NCBI GenBank assembly: GCA_947459175.1
Contig: CANHCT010000003.1
Span: 1-50,180, forward strand
Direction of reading: 5' to 3'
DNA from: Hymenobacteraceae bacterium
Lineage (GTDB): Bacteria > Bacteroidota > Bacteroidia > Cytophagales > Flexibacteraceae
DNA length: 50,180 nt
The translations under genes and the position numbers were made by a program. Positions 13,058 through 44,965 of this stretch are shown one piece after another. The notes below the pieces were generated by a model. That model was not told where the DNA came from. It made no database searches and worked only from the letters and a program-made list of their open reading frames with translations. Each line of letters begins with the position of its first letter. The stretch's first letter is position 1.

Positions 13058-14893
13058 ATGAAAAATTCAATTCTTCACACAACGACCGGCTCTGCAGGAT
13101 GTTTCGCAGGAAAACAATTTTCCTTGTTTGAATCACTGATAAAGAATAAAAATACCTTTATCGTTTTCGGGGTCCTGTTTCAATTTTTATCGCCATTAAC
13201 CCACAACCTGGTAATGGGTCAATGCAAACCTATTTTTGCTTCAAATATTTCTTCAGAACCAACAACAGTTGAGGCAGTTGCAAGTCTAACCCCGTATCAA
13301 TCTGCAGGCTACTTATTAACACCTGGAAATCATGGAGCTTCTCAGCAGGGTCCAGGAATCCCAGTAAACCCTGCCAACAATATTGACTTGAATAATAGGT
13401 TTCTAAATTTTTCTTTTTCATATGATGCGGGTTCAGGACTTTCAACCTGGCAAATTGATTTTAACGACAATGGATTTTTCTCAGATAACGGTGAGTCAGC
13501 AATATCGCAGGAAGTGGAACTGGAAAACAAAGGGTTTGGCAACCTAAGATTATCTTTATCTGCTGGAAATTCATCCAGTTTTTGGAGCAGGACAACAATC
13601 TATAACTTAAACATAAACGGTACAGATATGGGATCACGCACAGCATACGGCTCTTTTCCAGTTGAGCAGATTTATTCTGGAATTTCAGGAAGTCTGAATG
13701 ACATATCAGTTACCGGAATTCTGATATTTAATCACGTTTCAAGTGTATTTATTGAAGATTTCCCATTCTTAAAGATTGAGCTGGTAGAGCCTGTGGAACG
13801 CACCCTTTGCGAGGTTCCAATAATTAGTCATCCAACAGGAACCTACGAAGAACAGCAAAGCGTTTCGATAGATTTTCCGGACCCTGATGCTTCAGTGTAT
13901 TTCACAACCAACGGAAATATTCCCCGGTTTGATGTGCCAAATACATTCACCATGCTTTATACAGGACCAATTCAGGTAAACCAAAGTACAACCATTAGAG
14001 CTGTGGCAGTAAAAAGCGGGTTTCCCAATTCACAGGAAGTGGTATCTTACATTTCTATAAATGGTGGACCGTCCCCGGTAATGGCCCCGGTTGTCAGTCC
14101 GGGAGCTGGGGTTTACACAAGTGCTCAGGAAATAAGCCTGTCTTGTGAAACCGATAGTGCCACAATTTATTATACCACAACAGGAAATGTACCCGTACCC
14201 GGCACCTCCTTTACCAAAATATATTCGCAGCCATTTGTTGTACATTCATCTACCCAAATCAGAACATTTGCTGTGAAGGAAGGCATGCTCAATTCACCCC
14301 AAACCATTACAAACATTGTAATAAACGCCCCCACTCCAGTTGTTTCTACCCCTGTAATTTCTCCAGGCAGTGGTAATATTAGCCCAAGCCAATTCATTTC
14401 TATTGATTGTGCCACTCCCGGATCCATAATTTATTATACAACCAATGGAAATGTGCCTTTATTAAGTCCATGGCCCAACTCGTTTACCCGAATTTACACA
14501 GGACCTTTCAGACTTTCAGCAAGGGGTATGAATACCATCAGGGCGATGGCCACAGCCCCATCATCAATTAACTCACAGGTAACAGTTGCCAATTTGTTGG
14601 TAATCAATCCCGAAGCCCGTATGGCTTTTGATGAGAATGATTCCAAAACCTTAAACAAAGAAATTCAGGTTTATCCGAATCCATCATCCGGAACATTCTT
14701 TGTTCAGGTGCCTATTGAAGATGAAAATTTATCCTTCTCAGTATTTACTACCGATGGAAAAGAGGTGGAAAATGGGGAATTTATGCCGGGACAAACCTCA
14801 AAGCTTGATTTGGCAACTCTAAAATCAGGCCTTTATCTGTTAAGAATCAAAACCGACAACGGATTAAAAACAATACGGCTCTCAAAGGAGTAA
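13058..14893 (+). CDS. T9SS type A cargo with three chitobiase-like C-terminal repeats
   Basis: I take the ATG at 13058 (611 residues) rather than 12986. The hydrophobic export segment (TFIVFGVLFQFLSPLTHNL) is preceded by about 33 residues, an unusually long signal N-region. Residues ~65-250 form an unassigned beta-rich domain. Three tandem repeats of about 80 residues follow, resembling the chitobiase/beta-hexosaminidase C-terminal domain: each has PVxSPGxGxY, an IYYTTxGNVP core and IRAxAV near the end. The C-terminus is a T9SS type A sorting domain (VYPNPSSGTFFVQV, LKSGLYLLRIKTDNG). No catalytic domain is visible, so it is probably a surface adhesin or carbohydrate-binding protein. The coding sequence is visibly richer in A/T than its neighbours. 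A strong terminator follows. Confidence 0.85.
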   Translation: MKNSILHTTTGSAGCFAGKQFSLFESLIKNKNTFIVFGVLFQFLSPLTHNLVMGQCKPIFASNISSEPTTVEAVASLTPYQSAGYLLTPGNHGASQQGPGIPVNPANNIDLNNRFLNFSFSYDAGSGLSTWQIDFNDNGFFSDNGESAISQEVELENKGFGNLRLSLSAGNSSSFWSRTTIYNLNINGTDMGSRTAYGSFPVEQIYSGISGSLNDISVTGILIFNHVSSVFIEDFPFLKIELVEPVERTLCEVPIISHPTGTYEEQQSVSIDFPDPDASVYFTTNGNIPRFDVPNTFTMLYTGPIQVNQSTTIRAVAVKSGFPNSQEVVSYISINGGPSPVMAPVVSPGAGVYTSAQEISLSCETDSATIYYTTTGNVPVPGTSFTKIYSQPFVVHSSTQIRTFAVKEGMLNSPQTITNIVINAPTPVVSTPVISPGSGNISPSQFISIDCATPGSIIYYTTNGNVPLLSPWPNSFTRIYTGPFRLSARGMNTIRAMATAPSSINSQVTVANLLVINPEARMAFDENDSKTLNKEIQVYPNPSSGTFFVQVPIEDENLSFSVFTTDGKEVENGEFMPGQTSKLDLATLKSGLYLLRIKTDNGLKTIRLSKE

Positions 14894-33862: not shown

Positions 33863-34339
33863 TTATATCCCGGGGGCAATATCAAGAATTTCGAATTCCA
33901 TAGCACCGGCCGGAACCTGGATGGTGGCTTTCTCTCCCACTCGTTTACCCAAAAGTCCTTTTCCAATCGGACTTTTCACAGATATTTTGCCGCTTTTCAA
34001 ATCGGCTTCCTCTTCTGAAACAATGGAATAGGAAATGGTAGCACCGTTTTTGGCATTTTTAATTTTCACTTTGGTCATAATGGAGACCTTGGAAGTATCA
34101 ATCGAACCGGAATCCAGCACCCGTGCATTGGCCACAATGTCTTCGAGCTTTGAAATTTTTAATTCCAGCAGTCCCTGTGCATCTTTGGCTGCATCGTATT
34201 CAGCGTTTTCACTCAAATCGCCTTTGTCACGGGCCTCGGCAATCTGCCTCGCCATTTCGGCCCTGCCCCTTACTTTGAGTTCATTCAACTCATCTTTCAA
34301 TTTCTTCAGGCCTTCTTCTGTGTAATAGGAAATAGACAT
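33863..34339 (-). CDS. greA: Transcription elongation factor GreA
   Basis: GreA rescues stalled RNA polymerase by stimulating cleavage of backtracked RNA. The 158-residue length is standard. The N-terminal coiled coil (GLKKLKDELNELKVRGRAEM) carries the family acidic tip DKGDLSENAEYDAAKDAQ, and the C-terminal FKBP-like domain ends PIGKGLLGKRVGEKATIQVP. The tip residues D and E that act on RNA polymerase are intact. It heads a tight operon with HIT and proC. Upstream, a perfect -7 box is followed at once by a terminator-type hairpin, suggesting leader attenuation (see findings). Confidence 0.97.
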   Translation of the reverse strand: MSISYYTEEGLKKLKDELNELKVRGRAEMARQIAEARDKGDLSENAEYDAAKDAQGLLELKISKLEDIVANARVLDSGSIDTSKVSIMTKVKIKNAKNGATISYSIVSEEEADLKSGKISVKSPIGKGLLGKRVGEKATIQVPAGAMEFEILDIAPGI

Positions 34340-34353
34340 TTTTCTCCGTTTGG

Positions 34354-34391
34354 TTTAAAAAAATAAAAAACGGCCAGAACCTGACCGTTTT
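34354..34391 (-). terminator. Hairpin with T-run between PorV-like gene and greA
   Basis: On the minus strand AAAACGGTCAG and CTGGCCGTTTT form an 11-bp stem (one U-G wobble) with a 3-base loop, followed by TTATTTTTTT. It starts 25 bases after the PorV-like stop and would end the TonB-receptor operon. It also lies inside the presumed greA leader. Confidence 0.85.
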
Positions 34392-34398
34392 CAGTGTG

Positions 34399-34415: not shown

Positions 34416-35519
34416 CTAAAGTGAAAGCAGAAGGGCAAAACGATGTGTTCCGCCAAAATACCGGGTCACAGAATATGAATAATCCAAAGCAATCACTTTG
34501 GATTTGGTTGCACCGGAATACAAATCACTGTCGCTTGCCTGAATATTTTCTCCGGCTGAATTCTTCATAAACGGAATCTGGAAGGTCAAACCTGCTGAAG
34601 GACCCAGATTGGCTGTGGTAGACTCCTGTTTGTTGAAAATGCCTTCCTGGTAATCATAACCTCCGCGCACCATGAACATATCTTTCCATGAGGCCTGAAA
34701 ACCAATCTGATACTGGTCACTGGTAAAGGAATTTGAACGAAAGTTGAACATGGGCGTAAGTCTGACAAGATCGTCTTCAAAATAAAAATCATAACCAACA
34801 CCGATGTTCAGCATAGATGGCTGCTCAAAGGCAGCAGTCAGCAATCCAAGTGTCTGGTCATTCTGACTGTTCTGAAGTTTACCCCTTCCGGAAAGGTCGG
34901 TTCCGGAGTAGCTCATCTTGGGGCCAAGATTCATAATGGATACACCGAATTTAAATTCATTTTTCGGCCCCCTTTGGTATTGAATTCCTGCATCAAAGGC
35001 CACACCAAATGCTGAAGTTGCCCTGAATGATTGAGAGATTCCCCTGACAAGCAAACCTCCTGAAATCCGGTTGGAAAACTTTTTGGAATAAGCAGCACCA
35101 AAATTGAAAATCTGAGGCTTAAAAGTATTCCCTGTGCCGTCAGGCAATTCAACAGTGGTCTCATAAAATGTTCCCAAGTCATAAGAGGTAAGTGTAATCC
35201 CCATAGTACCGGTCTCGCCTACCCGTTGAGCCAAACCCAAAGAATTAATGTTAATCTGGCTGCCCATCAGGTAGAGGGCCGAGCAGAAGTTAATTTCTGT
35301 CTTTCGGATGCCATTGAGGCCTGCCACATTCAATCCCATGGATTCGATGCCCCTTACAATACCCGAATTGGCACCTGCCATCCCGGAAGACCTGGCCCAG
35401 GGATTCACAAGCAGTTCAACTGCACCGGCTTGTCCTCTTTTTGTGTCGTTGCCGGCCATCAGGTTGGCCGAAACCAAGCCTCCGAGCAGACTTAAACCTA
35501 AAATTCTTTTAAAATTCAC
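34416..35519 (-). CDS. PorV/PorQ-family outer-membrane protein
   Basis: The GTG at 35519 gives a 367-residue protein with a good signal peptide (NFKRILGLSLLGGLVSANLMAG), 22 bases after the upstream stop. The longer frame to 35648 would overlap the 1500-residue gene and lacks a signal. The mature N-terminus has the PorV/PorQ hallmark AVELLVNPWARSSGMAGANSG followed by repeated amphipathic strands (FNFGAAYSKKF, GGLLVRGISQSF, LNIGVGYDFYFEDDLVRLTP) ending in an aromatic-rich barrel strand (HRFALLLSL). PorV relatives act as FadL-like 14-strand barrels; PorV itself shuttles T9SS cargo to the attachment machinery. Whether this copy is the general PorV or a dedicated partner of the adjacent secreted protein is open; its place in the operon favours the latter. 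Confidence 0.82.
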   Translation of the reverse strand: MNFKRILGLSLLGGLVSANLMAGNDTKRGQAGAVELLVNPWARSSGMAGANSGIVRGIESMGLNVAGLNGIRKTEINFCSALYLMGSQININSLGLAQRVGETGTMGITLTSYDLGTFYETTVELPDGTGNTFKPQIFNFGAAYSKKFSNRISGGLLVRGISQSFRATSAFGVAFDAGIQYQRGPKNEFKFGVSIMNLGPKMSYSGTDLSGRGKLQNSQNDQTLGLLTAAFEQPSMLNIGVGYDFYFEDDLVRLTPMFNFRSNSFTSDQYQIGFQASWKDMFMVRGGYDYQEGIFNKQESTTANLGPSAGLTFQIPFMKNSAGENIQASDSDLYSGATKSKVIALDYSYSVTRYFGGTHRFALLLSL

Positions 35520-35541
35520 GGTAACTCGTTTAAAATCACTA

Positions 35542-38500
35542 TTAATTGAAAGTATCCAAATCAATTGGCCGCAGGATACCAAACCACTTGATAACCTTTT
35601 CACCAAGCTTGTCTGACTTGATGTGGATGATATATACCCCGGAAGCAATGGGCAACCCGTTCTGATTTTTCAAATCCCAATCAAGGAATGTTTGATAATT
35701 GGTTCCCCGTTCATTGATTTTCAATTCACCCCCTCCTACTGCTGCATAAGGCTTGGTATTGGTCTGATCAAAATTATATTGCCTTATCAGAGAACCTGAG
35801 AGATTGAAAATACTGACCACACATTGAGAAGGAATGTTCACAATCTTCACGCGATTATCAATCTGAGAACTTTCGTATTCGGATACAGACAAGTATGGAT
35901 TGGGCACAACACGAATCATATCCAATGCACTGGAACCTACGCTGGTGACATTCCGCTGGCTGGCATCAGCAGGAATTTCGAATTCATACACCGGGTCACA
36001 TTTTCCTGCATTTGCAAGTCCTCCGTGAGCAAAAGGCTCAAAAGCACGTTGAACACGAAGATTCACCTCGATTTGATTCAAATTCATAGAAAATTCCTCT
36101 GCATTGATGAAATCAATATTCCGGCCCATCAGTCCAACATACATCACATTGTTCATATACCAATTCCATACTCGGGGATTAAAATTCTGCGGACTCTGAG
36201 AGCTGAAATTGGTAAATAAAGAATCTATGGAACGCTCTGTTTCCCTGCAGGCATCATAAGCAGTATTGAGTACATAAATATAGTTCCTTGTACCAAGATT
36301 CAAACCCAGATTGGCTCGTGGCTCCCACTTAAGGTCATTGCCGGCTCCATTGTAAGGGTTTCCGAATCCTCCGGAGGTATCTTCCAAAATACTTTCAGAA
36401 AACATCATGTTCAGCCTTTGCCCTCTGTCAAGATCAACAGCATAACCGGGGAACCAGCTCATCCCTCTGGAGGCAACCAAATTGCCAAAGGGAGAAACCG
36501 AACCATCGCGCTGATACCTTTTGTTAACTGAAGGTCTTCTGCTTTTTGCCATGGTCCATTTGGGCCTGTTGGAACTGGACGCTCCTATGGTATCACATTG
36601 CAGAACCACAACGCGAGTCCATTTGCTCGTATCCGAAGTAAATACAATATCAACATTTTTTAATAGTGACATATTCCGAAATACGGATTTTGGACCATTG
36701 GCGTAATACAACTCGTCATCTTCAAAAGAATTGGTGGCTGCAAACATGGGGCCTCTGGTGAGTGATGTAGCAGCTGTGGTAAGGGCATATGGAGCCCATG
36801 AACCACCGGCCTGATTCCGGAAGGAACGGAAAGGATCCAGAGTCTGGTAAATATTCCCTGTGGCATATTTATCATCCCTTATCCATGAGGGACTAACTCC
36901 CGCTGTATTGAAGTCATACAACCATTGCTTTTGCCTGTCTGGGTCGTATTGAATGATTGAATTCAATGCTCCGTTTTTCTCAATTCCGTTGAATACATCA
37001 CTCCCAGGGGTAATTCCATTCTTGGGCCTTACTGCGATGCCATAATCAGGAATAATCTCTTCGGAAAGAGAACTTACCGGATTGGTACAAATGGTCTCCT
37101 TTCCTGAACCCAATTCCACCAATGTCCAGTAATCGAAGGGAAAATATTGTTGCACCACATTATTTTTGGTCGGATCTCCCTGGAGGAAAATTCTCGCACC
37201 TTTTGACTTGGAATCAACCAATATGGTATCACTGCGGTCTCTTTCAACCCTATCCATCTGAAAAGAGAAACTTCCGCCCTCACAACTGAAAGATTCAATA
37301 TCCAAATCGACCAAAGTGGGGAAACCATTCACAGGAACAACTCTTCTCACTCTGGCTACACCTTTTCTGTAGTCAAATCTCGGACTGATCCGGTAGCCGG
37401 CATCGGGCACAAAATTGTCGTCCGATTCAATGATATCACCAACCTTGAAAGCATACCCGGCATTGATGTTGTAACGAATGCGGTTGGAAAAGGTCATGCG
37501 GAATTTACCGCCTTTCAGTGCTTTGGGATTATACACCTTGAAGTCGATAGGACCGTTGCCAGCCTTGTAAGTTACCCTGTCAACTTTGCCTTCAGTGAGA
37601 ATCCTGTCCCGTTGCCCTTCTTTCAATTGCAGGAGATTCCCGGAGTTGCCGGTTCCGTTTACGCGGGTCACCTCAAATGAACTTCCAAAGCCATACGCCG
37701 ATGTAGTACCAAATGATTCAGGATTGAACTTATGGGGAATGGCCGTAAAAATCTTATAATTCTCAACACCCTGAATATACGGACGCTTAGCTTGAGAATT
37801 TTTATTGTAACCATACGCCACAACAGCATAATAATACTTTTTGAAGTTGGACAGCTTACCTCCGCTTATTGAAGAAAACATATCCCGCTCTACCTGAAAT
37901 GTCCGAAAAATACCTTTATCAGGTGTATTTTTCACCTTAGGAGTAAGAATATCCTGATTGAGATCGGGATTGAACTCAATATTACTGATAGAAGTGACAC
38001 CATCGGCAACATCCATAATACCATTGAAGTCCACCACGCCGTCACCGTTGACATCAGCATCCAGCGGACGGGCTCTGTCCGGGTTATCTAAATCCTGAAC
38101 TGAAACCTTATCGTCCTTCAGTTGGAAAATTTTATATCCCTGAAACCTGAAATATACATCTTCATTATTTGGTCCACCGGTGACAGAGCGATTCAGCTCC
38201 AAATAAGATTCTGTGGTCATCAGGGGAGAAGGCACGATAACATCAGGAACTATGGTGAACACCAACTTTCTGTCGATTTCAGAAATTTCAAGATTGGGGC
38301 TGTTGGGTCCAATATTCCTTTTGAAACAGGTATTGAAACGGTCCTGAGCCAAATCATCAGCTGCCAAAAGTTTTCCGAAAGACCCGGTAGCCCCGCCGGA
38401 ATTGGCTCTTGCCCATACAATTCCTATGGTACACTCATTTTTGGCGCCCGGCTTCAGCGTAAAAGGACCATTGTTGGCAAGGAAACGACGGTCACCGGGA

Positions 38501-40044
38501 GGGTTATTGGCCGTTTTTTCATTCCAGGCTGCACCGCAGGATCTGGGTTGTTCACAGCCCCGGTTGCCGCATGCAAAACCGAAGGGATCGCTTTGCTCCG
38601 TAACATTCGGGAACATGTACACCGCTTTAGGATTGTTGGGTGAAACAGGCTCAAGCCCAGCGCCTCCGAAACTGATGTCGTTGCCGTTTTTCCAACGGTT
38701 ACGCAGGTAATTATAAAATTCTGAGGGCAAACGGGGGTCTCCGTTGATGGGATTTCCGCCAATGTTGTAATAGATAAACCCGGACATTACAATTCTTTCA
38801 TTTGTATCCGGCGGGGAAGAACCGGGACCGTCACAATCCAAATCCCAGTCTATATTATCAAACTTATCATCCGGGAAGGGGCCCCTGAAAAAATCCACAC
38901 CTATAGCGGGTGGGTTTTCACCGTATCCCATGGTTCCTTCGTCGAAGTCGTCGCCATTGTAGCAAATACCCAAACCACGCATTACATCGCATCCTACATA
39001 ATCATCGCTGGCATTACCCAGGTCGGGATCCGCCCATTGGGCGAGATAGGTTTGGTCCAAAATATAATTGCCTTTGTTAAATAAGCGCTGGCGCAGAAAG
39101 GTCATGTCGTTGGTGGCATCTGTAGCCGCATATGCGAAAGCCTCATAATGAACCTCCATGCCCAAACCGGGTACAAACGGTGCAGCTATGTCTGGAAAAC
39201 CCTTTTTATTCCCTATGTCGTTACAAACCCACCAAAGCACCTGATCCGCTCCGGAGTTGATGTTGATTTCAGTACCCTCGCACTCCAGATCTTTTTCAGT
39301 TCCTGCCCAGAGAGGATAATCGCCCTGACATGGATTGTAAATACCATTGGAATCGGCATCATAAAAATTTGCCAGATTATTATCAACAGAAGCTACAGCC
39401 TCAGGATCAATAGAGAATTCACTTTTCTGCTTTAAGTAAGGATTGCCTTTTCCTGGCCAAAACCGAATTTCTGCAGGGATTTGCTCACAGTCGGTAATCA
39501 AACCGGCAGCCTGATTGCTGACAAAGTCTTTCACCGTTTTCCTGTTGCATTTAAAAAGTTGATCCCAGGCTGCACATACCCTTGGGGATGTATAGGTAGT
39601 AAGGTCTGGATTGTAATCTTTTAAAGGACCCGGCCAGTAATTGGCAAATCGGCCATTTTCCCGGTATGTCTGGGCCATTACAATCAGGTTACCTGAGCCT
39701 CTTTCCAATCCACCCAGCCAAATGGCAGCAGCAAACATAGAATGCTTAGATGTGGTAAAATTGTCTGTACGCTTGGGCACTTCATATCTGGCCTGACTAA
39801 GGCCCGGATCCCAAAACATATCCCCCTGATTCATGTATCTGGCCCTTACGTTATTGATATCCAAATCTGCACGGCTGGCACCAACATTACAATCGGAAGA
39901 AGCCTGAACAGATTGACCGCCGGTAGAACCATTGGAAGTGTTACCGGAACCCGGAGTTATCGGAGCAGCAGGTGGAGCAGCAGCAAAAGCTGTAGCGCCA
40001 AACCAGCAAATCAACCATCCTGTTAATAAATTCCTGTTTTTCAT
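35542..40044 (-). CDS. Very large exported protein with FlgD-like/T9SS-type C-terminal domain
   Basis: I use the ATG at 40044 (1500 residues; the frame also opens at 40053). The signal peptide is GWLICWFGATAFAAA. The body is rich in Asp/Asn/Gly/Pro and aromatic residues with no enzyme motif I recognise. One segment (DADVNGDGVVDFNGI) matches an EF-hand/dockerin-type calcium loop, and other acidic loops (DLDCDGPGSSPPDTNE, DADSNGIYNPCQGD) probably also bind calcium. The C-terminal ~130 residues start VVPNPYLSVSEY and continue CVVSIFNLSGSLIRQYNF and ASGVYIIHI, an Ig-like FlgD/T9SS type A-like module, but with an extra tail KWFGILRPIDLDTFN. It is probably exposed at the surface. It lies 28 bases after the TonB receptor and 22 before the PorV-like gene. 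Confidence 0.82.
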   Translation of the reverse strand: MKNRNLLTGWLICWFGATAFAAAPPAAPITPGSGNTSNGSTGGQSVQASSDCNVGASRADLDINNVRARYMNQGDMFWDPGLSQARYEVPKRTDNFTTSKHSMFAAAIWLGGLERGSGNLIVMAQTYRENGRFANYWPGPLKDYNPDLTTYTSPRVCAAWDQLFKCNRKTVKDFVSNQAAGLITDCEQIPAEIRFWPGKGNPYLKQKSEFSIDPEAVASVDNNLANFYDADSNGIYNPCQGDYPLWAGTEKDLECEGTEININSGADQVLWWVCNDIGNKKGFPDIAAPFVPGLGMEVHYEAFAYAATDATNDMTFLRQRLFNKGNYILDQTYLAQWADPDLGNASDDYVGCDVMRGLGICYNGDDFDEGTMGYGENPPAIGVDFFRGPFPDDKFDNIDWDLDCDGPGSSPPDTNERIVMSGFIYYNIGGNPINGDPRLPSEFYNYLRNRWKNGNDISFGGAGLEPVSPNNPKAVYMFPNVTEQSDPFGFACGNRGCEQPRSCGAAWNEKTANNPPGDRRFLANNGPFTLKPGAKNECTIGIVWARANSGGATGSFGKLLAADDLAQDRFNTCFKRNIGPNSPNLEISEIDRKLVFTIVPDVIVPSPLMTTESYLELNRSVTGGPNNEDVYFRFQGYKIFQLKDDKVSVQDLDNPDRARPLDADVNGDGVVDFNGIMDVADGVTSISNIEFNPDLNQDILTPKVKNTPDKGIFRTFQVERDMFSSISGGKLSNFKKYYYAVVAYGYNKNSQAKRPYIQGVENYKIFTAIPHKFNPESFGTTSAYGFGSSFEVTRVNGTGNSGNLLQLKEGQRDRILTEGKVDRVTYKAGNGPIDFKVYNPKALKGGKFRMTFSNRIRYNINAGYAFKVGDIIESDDNFVPDAGYRISPRFDYRKGVARVRRVVPVNGFPTLVDLDIESFSCEGGSFSFQMDRVERDRSDTILVDSKSKGARIFLQGDPTKNNVVQQYFPFDYWTLVELGSGKETICTNPVSSLSEEIIPDYGIAVRPKNGITPGSDVFNGIEKNGALNSIIQYDPDRQKQWLYDFNTAGVSPSWIRDDKYATGNIYQTLDPFRSFRNQAGGSWAPYALTTAATSLTRGPMFAATNSFEDDELYYANGPKSVFRNMSLLKNVDIVFTSDTSKWTRVVVLQCDTIGASSSNRPKWTMAKSRRPSVNKRYQRDGSVSPFGNLVASRGMSWFPGYAVDLDRGQRLNMMFSESILEDTSGGFGNPYNGAGNDLKWEPRANLGLNLGTRNYIYVLNTAYDACRETERSIDSLFTNFSSQSPQNFNPRVWNWYMNNVMYVGLMGRNIDFINAEEFSMNLNQIEVNLRVQRAFEPFAHGGLANAGKCDPVYEFEIPADASQRNVTSVGSSALDMIRVVPNPYLSVSEYESSQIDNRVKIVNIPSQCVVSIFNLSGSLIRQYNFDQTNTKPYAAVGGGELKINERGTNYQTFLDWDLKNQNGLPIASGVYIIHIKSDKLGEKVIKWFGILRPIDLDTFN

Positions 40045-40072
40045 GGTAATCATTAGTTAAGTGGTGGGTATG

Positions 40073-43000
40073 TCAGAAGTTGTATGAAAATCCAATCCTA
40101 AAACGGCGTGGCAATGAAATGTTGTCGGGATTCATGATGGCCATATTGTAAAACATGGCATAGCTTTCAGGACTAACTGCCTGACTGGTGAGATTCTGAC
40201 CAAACTGAGAGGTCAGAAAACCATTGTCTGTGGGAGAACCTGTACGGGCATACACACCAAGAACATTTTGCGCGTTGAAAACATTTTGTACATAAAAATA
40301 TACATTGATAAAATGGTCTCTGGAAGATCCTCCGGATTTTATGGTAAAATTCTTATCAATCCGGATGGAGGTACGGTTGTTCCATGGCAATCGGGAACCG
40401 TTGATTGCACCTTTTACCTGATACCTTCCGCCCCATGGCGAACCATCTTGTGTAAAGGGGGTTCCCGAGCCGGCATAATTGGTCATGTTGAAGCCCATGT
40501 TTGCCAAAGGCTTCATTCCCAATAATTCAGGACCTTCTCCATCGCCGAAGCGGTAATCAAAGTTCAACTTAAAAGCATGCCGCTGATCAAAGTTGAGGGC
40601 TGTAGTATTGCGAAGATTGGGCGTGGATGTATTAAGTAATGCGCCGGCAAAATTGGATGCCGAACCCTCTGCGAATGCCAACGTGTAAGAAGCCTGGGCA
40701 GTAAAGTTTTTGGTTTTCCTCAGGTCATACTGGAGAGATATTCCTTTTACCACACTAAAGTCCTGATTACCACTTGTTTGATAGCGTATGGGATAAGCAT
40801 AGTTGACATTGATTACCTGAATCAGATCTTTCACCTCGGAATAAAATACTGAAAGTTTAAGAGCAGAGCTTTCGTTGAGTGCCTGCTGGAAACCCAAAGC
40901 ATAATCTATCTTCTTTTGAGGCTTCAGATTGGGATTATTCAGAAAACCTCCGTTGTTACCCAAAATTCCAAGATAATCGGCACCTGTGGCATAATTCTGT
41001 TGCAATGCGTTGTTGGCATTAACTCCGAGCGGCCGCTGGGTCAACACATCGTAATGGGCGTAGAAAAGAGCCTTTTCCGAAATGGGAAAGGAAAAGGAAA
41101 TTCTGGGTAATACATTGATTTGAGGCTTGAAATCTTCAAAAGCATCCAAAGTTATTCCGTTGACACGCTGAAGGTTGCGAAGATTTCTGTCTTGTATGCC
41201 CGTAGCGTTGAAGAAAGGATTAACCGATCCATTTACTTCCAGGGAGGCCGGATTGCTGGTCTCTACCCCGTTTTGGTCGTACCATGTATCTCCGTTCCTG
41301 AAACCTTTAACCTGAAATTCATTGTAGTTGGTTCCGTTGAAGGTACTGGATGGCTTATCTACATAAACGGCCCAATCGTCGCCTACTCCGGCAGGGCGGT
41401 TTTTATTGGATGCGGTGAAAAAATCACGGGCAGTGGTCAGGCGGGTAAGGGAGTACTTGTCTCTCAACACCGGCATATTGACATCAAAAGCATCCACCCT
41501 GAGGCCGAGCCGAAGAATTAAATCTCCGATTTGAAAGCGATCTTCGATGAATCCTGCATAGTACAGCGGGCGGAATGCATCTATTGGCCGGTTGATGGTG
41601 TCTGTAAAAAAGTCGTAGAAAGATGTTCTTTTGGCTACATCACCATATGCATTATATCCCGACCACGAAGTAATTCGGTTTACCCCGTTATTAAGCAAAT
41701 CTGACACTCCAAAGTCCCTGAGCGAAAAAGTATTGGGGCCGTAACTGTCAATAAAAATTTCCTCATCAATCGGAATACCATTTCTTCTTCTGAAGTTAAA
41801 ATCAAATACAGACTGACCTTCAAGCCTACCGCTTCCGTCCTCATTCAGATTCCGGTTAACGAATGGCGAACGATAAACAAAATTAACCAGTTTGCCATTG
41901 TTCGGATCGCCCGGATTAATGTAACGACCAGTATCCAATCTGATGTCTTCTCCCAATAAACCGGAAGAAAGATGTCCGTTCAATTGCTGACGGGCCCTTC
42001 CATACAAAGAACCTGAGGTATTGAAATCACGGATAATTCTCTGCTCAAATTCTCCCCCGATTTTGATGGTGTGGTTCTTAATTTCGGCAGCAGCCTGAAA
42101 AGAAAACCGGTATTGTTCATCCCGGTCGCGGGAAAAATTGACCTGACTTTTGCCGAGAGCAGGGTAAAAGTATCCAAAATCATTGATACCACCGGATGTA
42201 GCACCATTAAAGAAACCACCAAGATTAAACACCTGAAAATCATTAACAATATTGTTTTCAGTAAAAATCTGGCTGTTGACACTGGACAAATCGCGATTCA
42301 GGTCTGATGGTTGATAAGATATTCTGAAGGGCTCATCCTTAAATACATACAAATTGCCGGGAGCGGACAAGAAACTACTATCTTTTGTAAAAACATTCCC
42401 ATTCTCATCAATTCCTTTATAAAGCAAGGTTCGGGGAGGTGCCTGTGTGGGCCAAAACAAATCCCGACGGTCGATGTTGAATTTGCCCACATAATTGTAT
42501 TCATTCAATCTCTCTCCGAACCTGGGATCATAGGACATTCGGTTTCTGCGTACATAATCAAACTGTACCTGGTAGTAGACATTTTTCAGCAATGCTCCGG
42601 TATCCTTAATTCCGGTGTTGAAAGTCTGGCGGAAGCGGATAAAGGCATTGTAGTTATTATCCGAAGAGTTGCCGTTATTGGCAGAATTGAATAGATTCTG
42701 ATAGCTGTTGGGGTCCGGACTTTCGCCTGAATTGTCCTCACTGGGTCCCAACTTTGATCGGGTCATATTGTAATTTCCGCCAACAGTTAGCAGTATGTCA
42801 TCAGAAGGCTGGAAGTCCAGATTCAGATTCGACTGAAAAAGGGTACTGGCCATGTTGGGCCGTGCCGAAACCCGCTGAAACTGGTCCGGTCCAAAAAAAT
42901 TGGCAGTGGCGGAATATGAATCGCCAAAACGGGTCAGAGGCTTTTGCCGGATTTGATTGAGTGCAGCGTCAGTAGCCCTGTAAATGGGAAGCGCTGATGG

Positions 43001-43924
43001 ATCTTCATCGGCATTGGAGGTAAATTGCGCAGCCCCAAAGAAACCCAGAATGGTTTTTCCTTCGGTTACCATACCATTGGGCAGAGTCTCCTTTCTTTTT
43101 ATGAGTGGTCCTGAACCATTAATACCTGCGAAGTTGTAGTGCCATTTATCAAATAAAGAGGATGTTTCACCCTGAACGCCGAAAGACAATTTCTGAGCGG
43201 CCGATTTGGTTGTTATGGAAATGATACCGCCCAGGGCATCCCCGTACTGAGCAGGAATTCCTCCGGATACGATAGAAAGTTCTTCAATCGCTTCTGCAGG
43301 GGGAAGGTTGGTTCCAAACTGACGGATTCCGTTGATAAACACAGCGTTATCCGTTGTTCTCATACCCTTGATGTTAACATTATTGTTATCATCGGCAGAA
43401 AATACATTGGCCTGAGTGGCCACCATGGAGTTCACATTCCGGGTCGGAATTTTGGCAATCTGCTCGGCGCTGAGACTCACTTTTTCTCCGTTGTCCACTC
43501 CGATGATGGGCTCTTTGTAAGCCTTTATCACAACTTCTTCCGTAGTTTTGGATGAAGAGGTGAGCTGAACATCGAGCTTACGGGTTTGCTCAAACCCTAT
43601 TTTCACATCCTTGATTACCTCTTTTACATACCCGACTCCAAGAACTTCCACGGTGTAAGTTCCGGGAGAAACCGGTGATACAGAGTAGTTTCCGTCAAAA
43701 TCGGCATTGGCACCACCTTTGAGGGCACCCCCGGAGAACAATTTTACCCCTGCAAAGGCGACAGGCTCTTTGGAGTCCTTGTCCACAATTCTTCCGAATA
43801 GTTTTCCGTTCTGTGCATACACGGACGAAAACCCGCAAATCAGGGAGGCAAGCCCGAAGGCCAGCGCAACTTTTATTTTTTCAGACAATTCCAACACGTA
43901 ACAGTTTTTCGTTAGCGGTTTCAT
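40073..43924 (-). CDS. TonB-dependent receptor with carboxypeptidase-regulatory-like domain
   Basis: The ATG at 43924 gives 1283 residues with signal peptide VALAFGLASLICGFSSVYAQ. An N-terminal carboxypeptidase-regulatory-like domain follows (GKLFGRIVDKDSKEPVAFAG, FDGNYSVSPVSPGTYTVEV), then the plug (ISLSAEQIAKIP-type segment VSLSAEQIAKIPTRNVNSMV, NIKGMRTTDNAVFINGI, SGGIPAQYGDALGGIISITT) and a long 22-strand barrel with AsnAspArg-rich loops, ending RFRIGFSYNF with a terminal phenylalanine as outer-membrane proteins usually do. Such receptors move substrates across the outer membrane with TonB energy. No SusD gene is linked; its operon partners are the giant secreted protein and the PorV-like barrel. 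The substrate is unknown. Confidence 0.93.
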   Translation of the reverse strand: MKPLTKNCYVLELSEKIKVALAFGLASLICGFSSVYAQNGKLFGRIVDKDSKEPVAFAGVKLFSGGALKGGANADFDGNYSVSPVSPGTYTVEVLGVGYVKEVIKDVKIGFEQTRKLDVQLTSSSKTTEEVVIKAYKEPIIGVDNGEKVSLSAEQIAKIPTRNVNSMVATQANVFSADDNNNVNIKGMRTTDNAVFINGIRQFGTNLPPAEAIEELSIVSGGIPAQYGDALGGIISITTKSAAQKLSFGVQGETSSLFDKWHYNFAGINGSGPLIKRKETLPNGMVTEGKTILGFFGAAQFTSNADEDPSALPIYRATDAALNQIRQKPLTRFGDSYSATANFFGPDQFQRVSARPNMASTLFQSNLNLDFQPSDDILLTVGGNYNMTRSKLGPSEDNSGESPDPNSYQNLFNSANNGNSSDNNYNAFIRFRQTFNTGIKDTGALLKNVYYQVQFDYVRRNRMSYDPRFGERLNEYNYVGKFNIDRRDLFWPTQAPPRTLLYKGIDENGNVFTKDSSFLSAPGNLYVFKDEPFRISYQPSDLNRDLSSVNSQIFTENNIVNDFQVFNLGGFFNGATSGGINDFGYFYPALGKSQVNFSRDRDEQYRFSFQAAAEIKNHTIKIGGEFEQRIIRDFNTSGSLYGRARQQLNGHLSSGLLGEDIRLDTGRYINPGDPNNGKLVNFVYRSPFVNRNLNEDGSGRLEGQSVFDFNFRRRNGIPIDEEIFIDSYGPNTFSLRDFGVSDLLNNGVNRITSWSGYNAYGDVAKRTSFYDFFTDTINRPIDAFRPLYYAGFIEDRFQIGDLILRLGLRVDAFDVNMPVLRDKYSLTRLTTARDFFTASNKNRPAGVGDDWAVYVDKPSSTFNGTNYNEFQVKGFRNGDTWYDQNGVETSNPASLEVNGSVNPFFNATGIQDRNLRNLQRVNGITLDAFEDFKPQINVLPRISFSFPISEKALFYAHYDVLTQRPLGVNANNALQQNYATGADYLGILGNNGGFLNNPNLKPQKKIDYALGFQQALNESSALKLSVFYSEVKDLIQVINVNYAYPIRYQTSGNQDFSVVKGISLQYDLRKTKNFTAQASYTLAFAEGSASNFAGALLNTSTPNLRNTTALNFDQRHAFKLNFDYRFGDGEGPELLGMKPLANMGFNMTNYAGSGTPFTQDGSPWGGRYQVKGAINGSRLPWNNRTSIRIDKNFTIKSGGSSRDHFINVYFYVQNVFNAQNVLGVYARTGSPTDNGFLTSQFGQNLTSQAVSPESYAMFYNMAIMNPDNISLPRRFRIGFSYNF

Positions 43925-43936
43925 TTTTAAAGCGAG

Positions 43937-43967
43937 CAATATTAGTTCACGGTTTACCTCTGACCAA
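43937..43967 (-). promoter_or_regulatory. Candidate -33/-7 promoter for the TonB receptor operon
   Basis: On the minus strand TTG (in TTTTTTGG, 43967-43965) is 20 bases before TAATATTG (43944-43937), which differs from TAnnTTTG at one base and is followed by C. Spacing is right for a Bacteroidetes sigma-ABfr promoter, but the leader to the ATG at 43924 would be very short. Confidence 0.45.
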
Positions 43968-43981
43968 AAAATATTGAGAGT

Positions 43982-44965
43982 TTACATCAGATTCGGACCG
44001 CTTTTCACAATTTTAAGGTTAAAATAATGCAGGATTTTCAGAGCAAGAATTTTTGAAATTTTTTCATAAGATTCTAAAGACCAGCCTGCTACATGCGGAG
44101 TGAGGATTACATTCTCTCTTGAGAACAGATTACCGAAGTACAGGGGAAATTTTTTGTCAAATTTTTCCAATGGTTCGGTCTCAAATACATCCAGACCTGC
44201 TGCGGAAACATGACCCTTTTCCAGCATCTGATCCAGTTCTGCAGTCTTCACAATCTTTCCTCTCGAAGTATTGATAAAAACCAGTCCTTTCTTACACGAC
44301 TCAAAAAAAGCCTTATCAACCCAATGCCTGGTTTCTTCTGTCAGCGGAATGTGCAGCGACACAATATCGGATTTGGCTTGCAGGGTTTTGAGATCTGTTC
44401 TTTCTGCGTTGTCATCCGGCCAGTCTGAAAGGTATTTGTCGTAAGCCAGAACCTTGCAACCAAAACATTTTAGCCGCCTGGCCACTGCCCTGCCCATGTT
44501 GCCGTATCCAATCAGGCCCACTGTTTTACCTGCCAATTCAAAGCCTCTGAATTTTTCGCGGTCCCAGATTCCTTTTCGCATACTGCGGTCGGCCTCAGAA
44601 ATACGGCACAAAAGACCCAGAATCAATGCCATTGTATGCTCGGCTACGGCATCGGCATTGCCTTCGGCTGCATGTAAAAGTTGAACCCTGTGTTTTTCGG
44701 CTGCCTTTTGGTCAATTCCATCCAGACCCGCCCCGGCACGAGCCACCAATTTCAGGTTGGAGGCTTTTTCGAAAAAAGCAGAGTCCAAATAAAATTTACT
44801 CCTGATGACCATAACTTCAAAAGACGCAATAACGGAAAGCACCTCTGCCTCAGAAATGTGAGGCCGGTATTCAATATGCATGCCATGGGCCGAAAGCATA
44901 TCCATCAAAGCGGGATGAACATCATCGGCTATCAGGCATCTGAAGTGCACAGACAAATCAGGCAA
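43982..44965 (-). CDS. D-2-hydroxyacid dehydrogenase (phosphoglycerate dehydrogenase-like)
   Basis: The 327-residue NAD(P)-dependent dehydrogenase has the Rossmann motif VGLIGYGNMGRAVA (149-162) and catalytic residues R235 in NTSRGKIV, the acidic motif DVFETEPL (E262/E264) and H291 in LTPHVAGW. The N-terminal segment IADDVHPALMDMLSAHG is as in SerA-like enzymes. There is no C-terminal ACT domain, so it may be a short SerA or another 2-hydroxyacid dehydrogenase; the 'SerA-like' label is the safe limit. It follows the Bcp gene by 40 bases on the same strand. Confidence 0.9.
   Translation of the reverse strand: MPDLSVHFRCLIADDVHPALMDMLSAHGMHIEYRPHISEAEVLSVIASFEVMVIRSKFYLDSAFFEKASNLKLVARAGAGLDGIDQKAAEKHRVQLLHAAEGNADAVAEHTMALILGLLCRISEADRSMRKGIWDREKFRGFELAGKTVGLIGYGNMGRAVARRLKCFGCKVLAYDKYLSDWPDDNAERTDLKTLQAKSDIVSLHIPLTEETRHWVDKAFFESCKKGLVFINTSRGKIVKTAELDQMLEKGHVSAAGLDVFETEPLEKFDKKFPLYFGNLFSRENVILTPHVAGWSLESYEKISKILALKILHYFNLKIVKSGPNLM

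Follow-up and report, generated by a model that had tools for sequence, protein, structure and literature searches.

A conserved module of a TonB receptor, a giant exported protein and a PorV-family barrel that may represent a further type IX sorting route in Bacteroidota

In the type IX secretion system (T9SS), PorV collects type A cargoes inside SprA, and a conserved lysine in the last strand is a feature of the type A C-terminal domains (CTDs) bound to PorV (PMC10994853). At the surface, PorZ forms a stable pair with PorQ and PorU with PorV (PMC5562754), and the sorting domains of PorU and PorZ are known to stay uncleaved (PMC11285876). Type B cargoes have cognate barrels that are encoded just downstream and are occasionally shared (PMC12618676, PMC9143113), and it has been hypothesized that cognate barrels shield CTDs from cleavage (PMC10202324). 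Here we describe a three-gene module on the minus strand of contig CANHCT010000003.1 from a Hymenobacteraceae bacterium, of which a stretch of 50,180 nucleotides (the window) was analysed. The module encodes a TonB receptor, an exported protein of 1500 residues (the giant) and an outer-membrane barrel of the PorV family.

We put at about 0.62 the probability that the giant is delivered by the T9SS, captured by the barrel and held by it beside the TonB receptor, for probable glycan uptake. The original prediction, made from the window's sequence, that the module pairs a dedicated PorV-like shuttle with one cargo and a receptor was supported, in that the three genes are commonly adjacent in relatives, the barrel is not the only PorV of its genome, and the giant carries a sorting signal.

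Conservation of the three-gene module

The receptor gene (40073-43939, minus strand) encodes 1288 residues from its first TTG, with a probable better start at an ATG at 43924. It is separated by 28 bases from the gene for the giant (35542-40044, minus strand; no Pfam family), which is followed after 22 bases by the barrel gene (34416-35519, minus strand; GTG start, 367 residues), the candidate dedicated shuttle and anchor. Both the three-gene arrangement and the two gaps were as originally predicted. All three genes were present in 11 of 11 genomes of the window's GTDB family, in the same order and contiguous where the contigs allowed. A scan of named genomes with a 10-sequence alignment as the query returned at least 586 relatives, and 80 loci were kept for reading; the denominators that follow are the kept loci with room on the relevant side or sides. 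The full trio was in order in 62/71 loci, the receptor was beside the giant in 65/74 and the barrel gene was directly downstream of the giant in 66/76. Since these 62 loci span many families, the order is kept more than chance would allow. In loci from other classes the receptor, giant and barrel followed one another in the same order almost without exception. The closest relative among the matches listed was a pond 'Cytophagaceae' metagenome-assembled genome, and the other listed relatives included Flavobacteriales, Bacteroidales, Saprospiraceae and Cryomorphaceae. Most of the exceptions to the full trio were stand-alone extra giants with the same C terminus, suggesting that a barrel may be shared between cargoes. 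At least two of the genomes with an exceptional locus had the full module, or a further copy, elsewhere (L174 with L193, L186 with L178).

A phylum sample of 296 genomes, drawn evenly from Bacteroidota, gave profile matches to the giant in 117 genomes, to the barrel in 142 and to SprA in 229. SprA was found in all 117 carriers of the giant and the barrel in 116 of them (Fisher p 8e-18, uncorrected for relatedness). The constant presence of SprA indicates that the module most likely depends on the T9SS, so its earlier description as a self-contained device was too strong.

Sorting domain, tail and barrel clade

The last domain of the giant (residues 1367-1500; 35545-35946, minus strand) was assigned to the PorZ/PorU kind from structure modelling and PDB matches. 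In an AlphaFold model of residues 776-1500 (mean predicted local distance difference test score [pLDDT] 72, with several sorting-domain strands near 90), it had seven strands. Its best PDB match was PorZ (Foldseek 9.4e-5; VIA Z 10.7, root-mean-square deviation [rmsd] 2.6, 89 residues aligned, 28% identity), followed structurally by PorU (Z 9.1) and, further down, by the CTDs of mirolase (Z 7.7) and RemA (Z 7.1). Among the PDB matches, the domains of NucA, RemA and RemZ, which had been trapped in the SprA-PorV channel, ranked after PorZ and PorU, and FlgD was lower still; the predicted "FlgD/T9SS-like" C terminus can thus be narrowed to T9SS-like. The sequence of the last 130 residues matched PorZ weakly (NCBIfam 6.9e-5; PDB 5m11, E 0.05), and the type B sorting domain model TIGR04131 gave no match to the giant up to an E value of 1. 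A C-terminal, seven-stranded, immunoglobulin-like sandwich resembling known CTDs was therefore present in the model, which identifies the domain as a T9SS sorting domain in fold, in the wide sense.

The C-terminal tail WFGILRPIDLDTFN, which follows the conserved Lys1486 (35545-35586, minus strand), is a candidate address tag. The original prediction had singled out this region as KWFGILRPIDLDTFN, and the tail proved to be real and strongly conserved: K1486 was Lys in 75/76 sequences, and R1492 and D1495 were invariant in 76/76. The giant thus has the conserved last-strand lysine, K1486 having been equated with the RemZ lysine by strand position and not from a solved complex. Exactly 13 residues followed this lysine in 72/76 aligned sequences, and a direct check found Lys at position -14 in 62/65 named sequences and in 27/28 from other classes; the tail of the window's giant is one residue longer than usual. 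Cargoes beside barrels outside the module clade (described below), together with one ordinary type A cargo, had five residues after the lysine or arginine in 9/9 cases. The tail is accordingly an extension of about 8 residues, and its presence matches the barrel clade, since 19/19 clade barrels in the tree go with tailed cargoes and the neighbors of outside barrels were tail-less where examined. The extra C-terminal residues observed here, together with an insertion before the WDL strand in some members, resemble what has been described for PorU and PorZ (PMC11285876). About 100 frames in the window's genome match the type A domain; the tailed domain had a good match only in the giant (182 bits), and the second-best match, at 42 bits, was a tail-less cargo. 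Elsewhere in the window, a type A sorting domain (52.3 bits) was observed at 14669-14887 on the plus strand, inside a 639-residue frame.

The barrel scored 113 bits on the PorV/PorQ family model NF033709 (cut-off 90), as expected from the original description of a PorV/PorQ-type barrel. It also passed the Pfam PorP_SprF cut-off, and its only PDB sequence match was the solved PorV structure 6h3i (1.3e-9). It failed the more specific models for PorV (NF033710; 52 bits, cut-off 250), PorQ (NF033711; 51.1 bits, cut-off 220) and PorV2 (NF052325; 29.7 bits, cut-off 325). True PorV was present in 8/8 genomes examined for it; that of the window's genome, at C233, scored 452 bits on the PorV model, and the genome's PorV2, at C9, scored 463.6 bits. 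In a tree of 43 barrels, on which PorQ is not firmly labelled because the PorQ model was not run on its rows, PorV (8 rows, 100/100), PorV2 (4 rows, 100/100) and the module barrels (19 rows, 100/99) formed separate groups. The proposed comparison with true PorV thus placed the module barrel in a clade of its own, and it is not the genome's PorV. One divergent module barrel (L160) fell outside the module clade and grouped with the barrels of tail-less cargoes. Near PorV2 at C9 (L056) are another, partial barrel of the PorV family, encoded on the other strand, and a frame of 1737 residues in which a type A domain was weakly matched.

The same genome encodes a paralogue of the giant's N-terminal domain (G000:C188, L055:282-2081) in a protein of 600 residues, with 41% identity to residues 47-535 of the giant. 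This protein ends in a canonical type A tail, which scored 49.7 bits on TIGR04183, and no barrel of the PorV family was found adjacent to it. The same pairing of the N-terminal domain with a type A tail was found in another genome (L186). The sorting signal and the barrel therefore look, from these sequences, like one exchangeable unit that can be separated from the functional domain. The paralogue is followed by a 208-residue protein without an NCBIfam match. Also in this genome but outside the window, C130 and C132 (L278, L059) seem to hold a second, divergent version of the module, comprising a cargo at C130 whose variant sorting domain lacks the tail, another exported protein, apparently encoded by a frame that continues from C130 into C132, and then a 516-residue protein, a 950-residue TonB receptor, a PorV-family barrel and a lipoprotein. 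The same receptor-barrel-lipoprotein set was observed in G005 (L275).

These data bear on an explanation in which the giant is an ordinary T9SS cargo of the general PorV and the barrel is a FadL-like transporter for the receptor's substrate, with no role in sorting. The FadL superfamily includes the PorV-family and PorP/SprF barrels, and its other members move hydrophobic molecules; a true PorV is available in every genome examined for one, and no special co-variation links the sorting domain to the barrel. That the barrel nevertheless exceeds the PorV/PorQ cut-off, that the tail pairs with the barrel clade while tail-less cargoes have other barrels, and that the type A-tailed paralogue has no such barrel beside it make this explanation unlikely. 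Capture by the co-encoded barrel is preferred.

N-terminal domain, receptor and proposed complex

Residues 52-576 of the giant (38317-39891, minus strand) were predicted by AlphaFold and VIA to form a super-beta-sandwich of the type found N-terminally in glycoside hydrolase (GH) families GH94, GH15, GH65 and GH116. In a model of residues 51-830 (pLDDT 79.5, predicted template modeling score [pTM] 0.77), this sandwich matched dextran dextrinase, cellodextrin phosphorylase, glucoamylase and a GH116 glucosidase (Z 17-19, about 230-280 residues, rmsd 3-3.7); the best VIA match had a Z of 19.3, an rmsd of 3.1 and 252 aligned residues. The Foldseek TM-scores over the whole model were low (0.15-0.23), which is to be expected of a match confined to one domain of a long model. 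The (alpha/alpha)6 catalytic barrel of these families was not seen in the two models, parts of which were of low confidence. Since the match covers the sandwich and not the catalytic barrel, the models offer a glycan-related role of the giant as a lead only. An acidic loop, YDADSNGIYNPCQGDYP (39310-39363, minus strand), with the consensus FxDxDGDGxYxPxxGDYP in 42 relatives, may bind calcium, to judge by its residues.

The receptor has a signal peptide, a CarboxypepD_reg domain, a plug and a barrel. The plug (PF07715) scored 40.4 bits against a Pfam cut-off of 23.9 and CarboxypepD_reg domains were also detected by Pfam, which classes the protein as a TonB-dependent receptor. The single sequence gave no PDB match; a profile of 15 orthologues matched solved TonB receptors (the plug regions of Cir, PirA and PfeA) and SusC-type N-terminal domains. 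The receptor had no match to the SusC/RagA model TIGR04056 of NCBIfam, and no SusD gene flanks the module, the neighbors being a 2-hydroxyacid dehydrogenase gene and greA; the module therefore does not contain a SusCD pair. The reported absence of SusD was confirmed, but the expectation that one should be present was not, because the receptor falls outside the SusC/RagA type.

The proposed mechanism is that the operon builds one outer-membrane complex. All three proteins would be exported by Sec, with the receptor and the barrel inserting into the outer membrane, and the PorZ-like sorting domain would take the giant through the T9SS channel SprA. There the co-encoded barrel, and not the general PorV, would collect the giant, guided in part by the fixed-length tail. 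The sorting domain would remain uncut and docked on the barrel, like PorZ on PorQ and PorU on PorV, so that the carbohydrate-enzyme-like domain would be held on the surface beside the TonB receptor. The ligand that the giant could then capture or present for uptake driven by TonB would most likely be a glycan or glycoconjugate. Precedents for the individual steps exist in the T9SS work cited at the outset, and this account is the most economical one. Both the binding of the giant by the barrel and the uptake of a nutrient are inferred steps of the proposal.

The trio might instead be assembled on the surface for a purpose other than uptake. The giant would then be an adhesin or a protein of the surface layer or matrix, and the receptor would serve signaling, energized release or removal of the giant. 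Such a role would suit the great size of the giant, its abundance of beta-sandwich folds and its lack of a recognized catalytic domain, and stand-alone giants do occur without a receptor. Set against this, the receptor is a near-constant partner (the 65/74 loci given above) and has a plug and CarboxypepD domain but lacks the STN domain that a signal transducer would be expected to have, and the sandwich resembles domains of glucan-processing enzymes. We regard this explanation as rather improbable, though somewhat less so than a FadL-like transporter, and favor T9SS delivery and barrel retention in the service of uptake.

Several observations weigh against such an uptake complex. The type A model TIGR04183 scored 17.4 bits on the giant, under the cut-off of 23. 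The partial correlation between the distances of the sorting domain and those of the barrel was 0.26 after correction for the receptor and reached up to 0.34 elsewhere in the giant; the giant's central N-terminal region tracked the receptor rather than the barrel, and no significance is attached to these values. Many non-catalytic and binding roles are known for the super-beta-sandwich fold, the co-occurrence with SprA is not phylogenetically independent, and additional giants with the conserved tail occur in some genomes with neither a barrel nor a receptor adjacent to them.

Genomic setting and comparison with known systems

An intrinsic terminator-like hairpin with a U-run (34366-34392, minus strand) lies between the barrel gene and greA. 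Its 12-bp stem and U-run, read at 34392-34366, had a folding energy of -14.7 kcal/mol (shuffle z -3.5), consistent with the prediction that the module ends at one terminator. Terminator-like sites across the region numbered 11, against 12.0 in shuffles, so it is this site that matters and not the count; the counts of promoter and terminator patterns were altogether uninformative. The predicted single shared promoter was left unconfirmed: the 57 bases that separate the module from the upstream dehydrogenase gene contained no sigma-70-like match, in a scan that does not cover Bacteroidota promoters, and the dehydrogenase may therefore be co-transcribed with the module. The flanking greA (33863-34339) and 2-hydroxyacid dehydrogenase (43982-44965) genes were kept in most of the family loci read, and the chromosomal address of the module is largely fixed within the family.

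This largely fixed neighborhood of a single module (dehydrogenase upstream, greA and a HIT-family gene downstream) would suit an outer-membrane housekeeping accessory, akin to the surface subunits of the Bacteroidota BAM complex, in place of a nutrient system; BamG and BamH are a precedent for a machine in which a surface protein is held by a barrel of the FadL family (PMC12611786). The distribution is, however, multi-copy and patchier than that of a housekeeping part would be. The module was missing from the 11 genomes sampled from elsewhere in the same order, in which SprA was present, and from most of the class, and other classes have several copies per genome. Five further PorV-family loci in two genomes of other classes (G013: L271, L272, L273, L276; G028: L274) all had a receptor, a cargo and a barrel, and G013 has 14 PorV-family barrels, which suggests an expansion of such loci in other classes comparable to that of the SusCD families. 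A part resembling BamG in the BAM complex was consequently given low weight and is considered very improbable.

The uptake complex proposed above bears on how T9SS cargoes reach different destinations, and few natural examples of barrel-protected sorting domains have been available so far. The phylum-wide set holds hundreds of cargo-barrel pairs, in which 13 versus 5 residues after the key lysine match the split in the barrel tree, which makes the address code testable through exchanges of tails and barrels. Should the receptor belong to the complex, the module would be a new, SusD-free way of building an outer-membrane uptake system. At somewhat less than even odds, we suggest that it represents a third T9SS sorting route across Bacteroidota, in which a PorZ-like domain with a fixed tail is served by its own PorV-family shuttle and permanent anchor in an operon with a TonB receptor. 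A T9SS protein would then stand in SusD's place, and PorQ:PorZ would possibly be a specialized offshoot of this older three-part class. No description of such a three-part class was found in the open-access literature searched, most subscription papers and all preprints being outside the search.

Among the known systems closest to the module are PorQ:PorZ and PorV:PorU of the T9SS attachment complex of Porphyromonas gingivalis, in which an exported protein with a retained sorting domain is held by a PorV-family barrel (PMC5562754, PMC11285876, PMC10202324), and the PorZ and PorU domains are structurally the nearest to that of the giant. PorZ and PorU, however, belong to the secretion machine itself, whereas the giant has 1500 residues, a carbohydrate-enzyme-like domain, about 8 more C-terminal residues and a co-encoded TonB receptor. 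PorV, the general type A carrier, shares the NF033709 family with the module barrel and is its only PDB sequence match, but the barrel is far below the PorV equivalogue cut-off (52 of 250 bits) and in a separate clade. The type B CTD/SprF pairs, such as SprB/SprF of Flavobacterium johnsoniae, likewise have a dedicated barrel-shuttle gene directly after the cargo gene, with some shuttles shared (PMC12618676), and the module barrel passes the PorP_SprF cut-off; they differ in that the giant's domain has the PorZ/type A fold, the barrel lies on the PorV side and a TonB receptor is in the operon. SusC/SusD glycan uptake pairs also combine a TonB receptor bearing an N-terminal CarboxypepD domain with a co-encoded surface partner, but the module has no SusD, its receptor fails the SusC/RagA model, and its surface partner is apparently T9SS-delivered and barrel-held, whereas SusD is a lipoprotein. 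The single parts of the module are thus of known kinds; what is new is the PorV-side family of cognate barrels, the fixed tail and the near-constant TonB receptor.

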